Source: Fimbriiglobus sp.
GTDB lineage: Bacteria; Planctomycetota; Planctomycetia; Gemmatales; Gemmataceae
Assembly (NCBI GenBank): GCA_025351325.1
Contig: JANXWE010000141.1
Span: 1-61,569, forward strand
Length of the DNA: 61,569 bases
Direction: 5' to 3'
Shown: piece after piece, positions 54,224 to 55,894 of the stretch
Layout: every line of letters starts with the position of its first letter
How positions within the stretch are numbered: position 1 is the first letter of the stretch
The notes under the pieces: model-generated
What the model saw: the letters and a program-made list of their open reading frames with translations, nothing else
Database searches by the model: none
Told to the model about the DNA's origin: nothing
Position numbers and translations under genes: made by a program

Positions 54224-55051
54224 TTACTTTTCCCCGGCCAAGATCAGCACCGGCAGATCGACGCTGGCGGTCTTCTTCGTGACGGTATCGGTGCAACTCA
54301 AGCGGATCGTGAACTTGCCCGGACGCGTCATCGGCAGCAAAAATCGGACAGTGTAGTTCGGCAGCTTTTCATCAAGGTCGATCCCATCATGGAACAATGG
54401 CTTCTTCATCAGCGGTTTGGCGTTCTCATCGAGCGTCACCATTTCGAAATGCAAGTTTGGCTGCTTCTTGTCCGCGTCGCGTTTGAATCCCACCGCCGTA
54501 TAGTTGATGAAAATCGCCTGCCCCACCACGCCCGTGGTCGGAGCTGCTGTTTGACCGCGTTCATCAAGACTTCCGTAAATGGCCACGATGCCGAAATCCG
54601 GGGCGAGCACTTCGAATTTACGTTCCAGGGTCTGGCTCGCTTTATTCTTGTCGGCGCGGTCGGTCACCGTCACCTTCATGGTGAATTCCCCGGCCGGGTG
54701 ATCGACGCCAAGGGTCACAAACGCACGCGCGGCGACTCGGTTGCCACCGAGCGGCACGAGTTCGATCTTCTCGAACGGATCCTGCTTGAGCGTCGCCTTG
54801 CCGTCCTTGTCGGTCACCTCCATGACCATCGAATAATGCACGCGGCCGTCGTCATCCACGGAAATCCCGTCGATGTCGTACGACACGAACAAAATGTCTC
54901 CCGGCAGCAGTTTGCTGTTGGTGCGGGTCGGCCCGAGTACGCCGTAGGTGTTGCGGACGTTGGTGATTTCCAGCTTGCCAGCCGGGGCAGCCGCCGGTGG
55001 TTGGGCGGGAGCAAAAGCCAACAGGACGGCGACGATCAGTGAGCTTGGCAT
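54224..55051 (-). CDS. exported beta-rich protein, unknown function
   Basis: About 275 residues from the ATG at 55051, with a signal peptide and AAGGA 8 nt upstream. The mature part looks like two Ig-like or immunoglobulin-related beta-sandwich domains (LEITNVRNTYGVLGP, GDILFVSYDIDGISVDDDGR, then IFINYTAVGFKR and FTIRLSCTDTVTKKTASVDL). Such repeats often serve adhesion or assembly of surface layers. It precedes the TPR-YggX-like gene by 71 nt on the same strand. Confidence 0.75.
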   Translation of the reverse strand: MPSSLIVAVLLAFAPAQPPAAAPAGKLEITNVRNTYGVLGPTRTNSKLLPGDILFVSYDIDGISVDDDGRVHYSMVMEVTDKDGKATLKQDPFEKIELVPLGGNRVAARAFVTLGVDHPAGEFTMKVTVTDRADKNKASQTLERKFEVLAPDFGIVAIYGSLDERGQTAAPTTGVVGQAIFINYTAVGFKRDADKKQPNLHFEMVTLDENAKPLMKKPLFHDGIDLDEKLPNYTVRFLLPMTRPGKFTIRLSCTDTVTKKTASVDLPVLILAGEK

Positions 55052-55237
55052 TGGACGTTTCCTTTCAAAAGCGGAACCGGGAATTGGGAGCACCCGACAC
55101 TCCTAACGCACGAAACGCGATTTTGTGATTCGTTTGGATCATCGTATGGGGTGACCCGCGGAAAGGCATGTCCGGCCGGACTGGTTCGCTCGTAGAACGC
55201 GCGAACTCTTTCTTCGGAAACTTTTTCGCCGATTTGC

Positions 55238-55267
55238 TTGCTTTCCGTTTCGCCTCTCGCGTAGAGT
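55238..55267 (+). promoter_or_regulatory. possible promoter of the short RNA unit
   Basis: TTGCTT (55238-55243) and TAGAGT (55262-55267) are spaced by 18 bp on the plus strand. It lies in the 320-bp gene-free stretch 55052-55374. The rest of that stretch shows no other clear feature. Confidence 0.4.
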
Positions 55268-55374
55268 GTTGGTGCGGATGTCGTGGTCCCGCTCCACGAC
55301 GGGCAATTTGGCCAACGGAATCCTAACTGGTTCTGGGAATCCCGCGGTGTGACCCGAACAGAGGAGGTGATGTC

Positions 55375-55413
55375 TTGAAACATGCTAGTAGCCAGGTTGG
55401 GCGGCTGTCCTGA
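55375..55413 (+). CDS. 12-codon ORF, possible leader peptide
   Basis: A TTG start 7 nt after AGGAGG begins the peptide MKHASSQVGRLS, and the TGA stop lies in the loop of hairpin A. An overlapping ATG frame at 55382 is possible but has poorer spacing from the binding site. The ORF could be a real short peptide or a leader whose translation changes the RNA fold. Confidence 0.4.
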   Translation: MKHASSQVGRLS

Positions 55414-55457
55414 TAGCCGCAGACGGGCCGCTGTCTGCGATGGCCGCCCCAGTTTGC

Positions 55458-55483
55458 AAGCCCCGGTGAGGTCACCGGGGCTT
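55458..55483. terminator. strong terminator, shared by both strands
   Basis: A 12-bp perfect stem (aagccccggtga 55458-55469 with tcaccggggctt 55472-55483) closes the short RNA unit; TTCTTAGTTT follows. It spans the stop codon of the convergent EVE gene. Confidence 0.7.
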
Positions 55484-55894
55484 CTTAGTTTCCCCCGCCA
55501 ACTCCAGCACGCGATTCCACAACTCGTCGCCGCACGGCATCACCGATAACCGGGACATCCGGACCAATTCCCACATCTTAAACAACGGGTCGGCTTTGAT
55601 CGTCGCCAACGTAACGGGATGAGCCAATGCCCGCACCGCCTTCACCGGCACGACCACGAGTTTTTCATCGTCCAAGGTTGGATCGGGGCACGCTGTCCCG
55701 GTGATTTCGAGGATGCCGACAATCGCCTTCTCTTTGCCGGTGTGGTAGAAAAACGCCGTGTCGCCCGCTTGGCAGAGCCGCAAATGCTTCAGGGCGAGGG
55801 CATTGGTGATGCCGTCCCAGAGGGTCGCGCCGTCGCCGACGAGATCGGCAAACGAATAGACATCCGGTTCTTGTTTGAAGAGCCAATGGGCCAT
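55472..55894 (-). CDS. EVE-domain protein
   Basis: The 140-residue protein is a complete EVE domain: HWLFKQEPDVYSFADLVGDG at the start, WDGITNALALKHLRLCQAGD, AFFYHTGKEKAIVGILEI, and the conserved PLFKMWELVRMSRLSVMP near the end. EVE domains are YTH/PUA relatives that recognise modified bases in DNA or RNA. It is the last gene of a tight operon (gap 13 nt) with the 707-aa protein, the small protein and the XPB helicase, so it may bring them to modified or damaged DNA. Confidence 0.85.
   Translation of the reverse strand: MAHWLFKQEPDVYSFADLVGDGATLWDGITNALALKHLRLCQAGDTAFFYHTGKEKAIVGILEITGTACPDPTLDDEKLVVVPVKAVRALAHPVTLATIKADPLFKMWELVRMSRLSVMPCGDELWNRVLELAGETKKPR

Follow-up and report, generated by a model that had tools for sequence, protein, structure and literature searches.

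A candidate ribosome-gated small RNA conserved in Planctomycetota

Results

The locus in Fimbriiglobus

The window analysed here, a stretch of 61,569 nucleotides of Fimbriiglobus DNA, contains a predicted standalone RNA of about 215 nt at positions 55274-55490 of the plus strand; members of the same family in other genomes are about 200 nt long. The unit lies between two genes of the minus strand, and its parts are as follows:

54224-55093, minus strand: divergent upstream gene, without a Pfam match
55238-55267, plus strand: promoter-like pair TTGCTT-18-TAGAGT, read directly (TTGCTT at 55238-55243, TAGAGT at 55262-55267)
about 55274-55280, plus strand: predicted transcript start; predicted end at 55490
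55280-55300, plus strand: 5' hairpin P1, GTCGTGG/CCACGAC; paired in 98-99% of cells, with two-sided changes at all or nearly all of its pairs
55301-55357, plus strand: stem-loop P2, with apical CTGGTT at 55327-55332; 62-64% of cells paired, the pairs varying and covarying across the family
55327-55332, plus strand: 5' half of the pseudoknot, CUGGUU; partner at 55390-55395
55362-55371, plus strand: extended Shine-Dalgarno (SD) sequence AGGAGGTGAT; 12 contiguous pairs with the 3' tail of its own 16S rRNA
55375-55413, plus strand: mini-ORF of 12 codons, TTG start, peptide MKHASSQVGRLS, TGA stop
55390-55395, plus strand: 3' half of the pseudoknot, AGCCAG, which is ORF codons 6-7; variants changed together in relatives
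55399-55407, plus strand: arm 1, GGGCGGCTG, the 5' strand common to both competing stems
55414-55420, plus strand: arm 2, TAGCCGC, forming hairpin A with arm 1 (GCGGCTG), with the stop codon inside the loop
55419-55438, plus strand: hairpin B, GCAGAC/GTCTGC; covaries, 78-81% of cells paired
55442-55449, plus strand: arm 3, GGCCGCCC, forming the long-range stem C with arm 1 (GGGCGGC/GCCGCCC); covaries, 87-88% of cells paired
55458-55491, plus strand: intrinsic terminator, an 11-bp stem (55458-55483) followed by a T-rich tail
55472-55894, minus strand: convergent EVE-domain gene, the next gene after the RNA; its 3' end overlaps the terminator

A first-pass annotation of this DNA had described the promoter pair, the SD, the TTG-started ORF, the two competing stems with the GCAGAC/GTCTGC stem between them and the terminator, and each of these lies where it had been placed. 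The observation that no plus-strand gene follows the RNA is also right, the EVE-domain gene being on the minus strand. The 5' hairpin P1 (55280-55300), the stem-loop P2 (55301-55357) with its loop-ORF pairing and the phylum-wide distribution are additions of the present analysis.

The sequence of the window alone would have supported a modest claim. The core fold of the window copy is more stable than shuffled sequences (z -2.84, 2/200). The whole transcript is not exceptional (z -1.26), so the energy of folding, taken by itself, lends it weak support. A strict sigma-70 scan of the window found no promoter, and the promoter-like pair is weak when taken alone; a -10-like TANNNT box precedes the RNA in 52 of 57 relatives, compared with 33% in shuffles. 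A terminator-like stem lies 3' of the RNA in all 58 members, but the same test fires on 35 of 58 shuffled sequences and is too loose to bear weight.

Distribution across the phylum

BLASTN matches to the segment came from three congeners and from a single genus besides; two further BLASTN matches (L006, L007) were short chance matches. In one congener, a second, truncated copy of the RNA was found at a contig edge (G002:C260:1-137, L008), which is probably assembly redundancy. A first covariance model (R1; 96 positions, built from five sequences) gave candidates in 66 of 95 Gemmataceae genomes at a lax E of 0.5, and L070 was rejected as a false match of this model. With a full-length model built from 58 sequences (R2), matches were obtained in 77 of the 102 genomes of the order and in 264 of the 348 genomes of the class (E <= 1e-3), with almost always a single match in each, and also in other classes of the phylum. 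A phylum-level model (R3) matched 123 of 392 genomes of a phylum sample, again one per genome. Because screening was shallow, absences in these large searches should be read with caution. Tautonia sociabilis (L170) and Thalassoglobus neptunius (L212) are among the named carriers. The first-pass annotation had counted a lack of conservation in related genomes, together with a missing transcript, as refuting its proposal; homologues were found across the phylum, and the conservation half clearly does not refute it.

Covariation and long-range pairing

In the phylum-level alignment (A6), we counted 270 two-sided changes against 98 in shuffles, and none of 500 shuffles reached the observed value. 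Two-sided changes occurred in 27 of the 29 pairs, and slid controls were far lower. These figures are inflated, because A6 was fitted to the structure and model. An alignment that was not fitted to the structure gave 155 cells with two-sided changes compared with 63 in shuffles, and P1 was paired in 98.8%. On the strength of the counts in both alignments, P1, P2, hairpin B and stem C are well supported. The compensatory stem changes that the first-pass annotation had named as support for its proposal are present, and conservation with covariation places the feature beyond chance, in line with the initial view that the combination was unlikely to be random. In four copies (L127, L129, L133 and L206), long insertions separate hairpin B from arm 3; the insert is variable and the arms are kept.

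Hairpin A can form with at least 5 bp in 58 of 58 members, and its covariation is weak (6 two-sided cells). Swapping arms between genomes barely lowered complementarity. Arm sequences resemble one another between genomes and, for many members, the stretch taken as arm 3 was misplaced, so that the swap tests of arms 1, 2 and 3 are uninformative, and column counts were used for the arms in their place.

The loop of P2, whose stem is short and irregular in this Fimbriiglobus genome, is complementary to ORF codons 6-7 in the window copy. Across the family, the loop and the ORF of the same genome match better (mean 6.62) than those brought together in 300 between-genome swaps (6.00 +/- 0.12, maximum 6.40). 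The two halves have changed together in relatives, as in CUGAUU/AAUCAG, CUGUUU/AAACAG, UGAUUGCC/GGCAAUCA, UUGGUA/UACCAA and GGGUCG/UGACCC. Pairing of the P2 loop with codons 6-7 therefore places the start codon between P2 and a pseudoknot.

Ribosome landing site and mini-ORF

The 16S rRNA of the same genome ends in GGATCACCTCCTTT, and the part of its 3' tail that pairs with the SD is GATCACCTCCTTTC. The 12 pairs of the window copy were counted with flanking bases and with G-U allowed. At least 12 contiguous pairs with the 16S tail are found in 53 of 58 family copies, a level reached by 0.04% of start codons picked at random in the window; most members pair over 12-14 nt, and such pairing recurs in 46 of 53 copies from other families and classes. 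As predicted from these sequences, the pairing is well beyond that of an ordinary SD of 5-7 pairs. Many non-Gemmataceae copies (L116, L121, L125, L126, L134, L210 and L232) carry an extra hairpin 3' of arm 3, CUCG..GGAUCACC..GAUCC..CGAG, that was not seen in the window copy. This hairpin resembles the 3' end of 16S rRNA and complements the SD of the RNA in which it lies, and it is a possible internal lock on ribosome loading.

All 58 non-redundant Gemmataceae copies have a GTG, TTG or ATG codon 6-9 nt past GGAGG (46 GTG, 9 TTG and 3 ATG), from which an ORF 10-15 codons long is read. Copies from other families and classes show the same arrangement in 50 of the 53 that were scored, a count in which a few automatic calls took the wrong SD or start. 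In 58 of 58 Gemmataceae copies the ORF stops at one and the same point of the structure, even when arm 1 is read in another frame. This is the case in L018 and L019-L021, where the peptide ends in ...AGGCF or ...EAAAV instead of ...GRLS and the stop has not moved in the structure. The first stop of the two other frames falls near the real stop in only 2 of 116 cases. Because all 58 stops coincide despite these differences in frame, the position of the stop is kept more strictly than the peptide, and this suggests that the place where the ribosome stops may matter more than the peptide made. The ORF, its start spacing and its stop position are conserved; the residues of the peptide, whose conservation the first-pass annotation had named as support, are kept less strictly. 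The peptide itself may matter too, given its common residues: CSGNQ, QRGG, DCTKGLH and GRLS recur, often with Q before R or K, ...RGG, ...RLx and ...KGLH. We consider it probable that the mini-ORF is translated.

Gene context

Among the 83 loci with both neighbours called, the neighbours are oriented -- in 22, +- in 21, -+ in 21 and ++ in 19, and they vary in identity and orientation among genomes, including those of the same genus. Recurrent neighbours are a divergent secreted-protein family (21 loci), a downstream DAHP synthase (14) and EVE (6); they look like lineage synteny outside the promoter or terminator. The DAHP synthase gene, which was identified by reading the sequence and not by a family search, follows the RNA on its own strand in 14 of the 63 family members. 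No downstream gene is conserved, which speaks against a cis attenuator. Of the two functions first suggested for it, attenuator or dual-function small RNA, the usual cis attenuator is not supported, since a terminator follows the RNA, the competing stems are clear of it and the neighbours differ between genomes. Dual-function RNA was the better guess, given a standalone, structured and conserved RNA with a conserved ORF.

Searches for known RNA families

Neither the window nor any of 20 loci from other families matched an Rfam entry at the gathering score, and at a relaxed E-value the window yielded chance matches only (sX12, P15). Two widespread RNAs were set aside: the window has no tRNA-like domain or family score for tmRNA (RF00023), which this genome carries on contig C303, and no match to 6S RNA (RF00013), a likely copy of which lies on contig C370 (46.3 bits against a cut-off of 46.4). 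The 45-bit gathering cut-off of Ms_IGR-5 (RF02471) was not reached in the window or in the 20 other-family loci, and 0 matches exceeded it in 119 genomes of the class. The Ms_IGR-5 model overlaps R2 loci at 20.8 bits (E 0.02) in two loci of one genus; L282, a match below the cut-off, was dropped because it lacks an SD. Conversely, an Ms_IGR-5 copy (L190) reaches 21.5 bits with R2 and 28.2 with R3, where other non-planctomycete stretches selected for their SD go up to 20.8 and 25.2. The 75-bit curated cut-off of CC2171 (RF01867) was not reached by the window or by any planctomycete copy tested.

A genome-wide scan for the pattern SD plus start plus GACGGG returned planctomycetes and also proteobacterial loci that share the perfect SD and carry different short ORFs; a terminator follows most of them. 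Two of the non-planctomycete loci have an Rfam match at the very site of the pattern, CC2171 in L216 and Ms_IGR-5 in L190. Matches in Azospirillum were rejected, since they belong to an ordinary, longer protein whose SD is strong.

Discussion

The locus almost certainly represents a genuine conserved structured RNA family, which is apparently undescribed: it is without an Rfam entry and was not found in the literature searched. Few RNAs span a phylum with, as a rule, a single copy in each genome; tmRNA, 6S, RNase P and SRP are the examples. The design of this one points to the ribosome, and it raises the question of whether translating a 12-codon ORF switches a free-standing RNA.

We propose that it is a standalone, ribosome-gated regulatory (switch) RNA of Planctomycetota, a reading to which we assign a probability of about 0.5. 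Its basis is sequence comparison of the promoter, P1, P2, the P2-ORF pseudoknot, the near-maximal 16S complementarity, the ORF with its position-conserved stop, stems B and C and the terminator; the ribosome protection reported for Ms_IGR-5, an RNA of similar design, also fits it. A 30S subunit would be captured through the 12-14-nt pairing and would initiate at GTG or TTG. The translating ribosome would open the P2-ORF pseudoknot. It would then terminate at the stop codon, which lies shortly past arm 1, and so cover this arm; stem C would be blocked and arms 2 and 3 left free. When no ribosome loads, arm 1 would pair with arm 3 and the pseudoknot would close. The RNA would thereby adopt two shapes, one ribosome-occupied and one ribosome-free. 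Most speculatively, the change of shape might make the region of arms 2 and 3 accessible or inaccessible to a trans-acting partner or, alternatively, set the stability of the RNA itself, and the RNA might in this way report or buffer free ribosome capacity. A point against the switch reading is that hairpin A, which is half of the proposed toggle, shows weak covariation.

The strongest rival, which we regard as unlikely, is that the RNA is a decoy or reservoir holding 30S subunits by an SD stronger than that of a normal mRNA, with the mini-ORF and its stop serving as a controlled release. That most members pair with the 16S tail over 12-14 nt, as do copies outside the family, fits this idea, as does the preference for GTG and TTG over ATG starts. 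However, it leaves unexplained the in-frame ORF length, the placement of the stop and the conservation of stem C and the pseudoknot, and titration of ribosomes would need a very high copy number. Slightly less probable still is that the 10-15-residue peptide is the actual product, made under the control of the structure. The recurring residues and the preservation of frame would be expected of such a dual-function RNA, but in L018 and L019-L021 the C-terminal residues change completely while the stop stays, and many of the common residues coincide with pseudoknot and arm nucleotides.

It is improbable that the RNA is a former or lineage-specific cis leader of a neighbour such as DAHP synthase: a leader ORF, competing stems and a terminator are all present, and one downstream gene recurs in a cluster of 14, yet the neighbours elsewhere, even within the genus, are unrelated or convergent, the terminator lies outside the competing stems, and the next gene in the window is antisense. 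Least probable is a constitutive structural RNA with the ORF as a by-product, pairing for example with the 16S 3' end in ribosome assembly; the complementarity does span nearly the whole mature 16S 3' end, but such an RNA would not conserve the 6-9 nt start spacing, the window of ORF lengths and the position of the stop.

Among known systems, the trp and his leaders are ribosome-mediated attenuators with a leader ORF, competing stems and a terminator. The uORF of cysS (uORFC-8-2) is another ribosome-mediated attenuator (PMC8632094). The planctomycete RNA resembles these in its leader-type ORF, its competing stems around the stop and its terminator; unlike them, it has no downstream gene and no run of regulatory codons, and its terminator stands outside the competition. 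SgrS combines a separate base-pairing region with a protein of about 43 residues. Here too, one small RNA holds both structure and ORF, but the ORF passes through the structure and ends inside it. Rhodopirellula-1, which one table gives as a probably cis-regulatory RNA of Proteobacteria and Planctomycetes without an Rfam number (PMC2864571), is unlikely to be identical with the present RNA.

The closest relatives in design, judging from their sequences, appear to be Ms_IGR-5 and CC2171, both Rfam sRNAs of unknown function. Ms_IGR-5, from Actinobacteria, has a similar order of parts: a AAGGAgGugGuCc SD, a short ORF ending in UAG, arms and a terminator. The Rfam consensus reads GGUGgCugC in one arm and a later complement, GcAGuCACC, before the terminator, and planctomycete copy L232 has GGTGGCTGC and GCAGTCACC at the corresponding places. 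Ms_IGR-5 thus shares the architecture of a strong SD, a short ORF, a GGUGGCUG arm, a complementary 3' arm and a terminator, which is a striking likeness and not proof of common descent; we found no evidence in it of P1, P2 or the P2-ORF pseudoknot, and the frame across the common arm differs. Ms_IGR-5 is reported to be expressed (PMC10454040; PMC8079986, by RNA-seq) and ribosome-protected, with significant reads in both M. abscessus and M. smegmatis (PMC4974804). CC2171, an sRNA of Caulobacter and Alphaproteobacteria, is alike in its GAAAGGAGGUGAUCCAGUG SD and start, its short ORF and a long-range pairing from the ORF to the region before the terminator; it differs in having a longer ORF and unrelated stems and peptide. 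The papers found on Ms_IGR-5 and CC2171 give no mechanism, and the planctomycete RNA offers a frame for these two orphan sRNAs.

Fourteen loci from alpha-, beta- and gammaproteobacteria (L163, L165, L171, L177, L188, L189, L211, L216, L217, L220, L221, L222, L233 and L238) carry the perfect SD AAAGGAGGTGATCC. Their short ORFs differ (MSSEI..., VSRVxLERGVGT..., VRDHQG..., VSHC...), terminators lie nearby, and only L216 has an Rfam match; from these features, they may be further unclassified mini-ORF sRNAs. We tentatively raise the idea, with considerable doubt, that these loci, Ms_IGR-5, CC2171 and the planctomycete RNA belong to one bacteria-wide class, in which a near-perfect 16S complement would load a ribosome and the stop of a mini-ORF would lie in a conformational switch, the RNAs sensing or buffering free ribosomes and acting in trans. 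As a side observation on RF02471, its GGUGgCugC and GcAGuCACC segments are complementary yet stand unpaired in the printed structure line, and this family may need re-folding.
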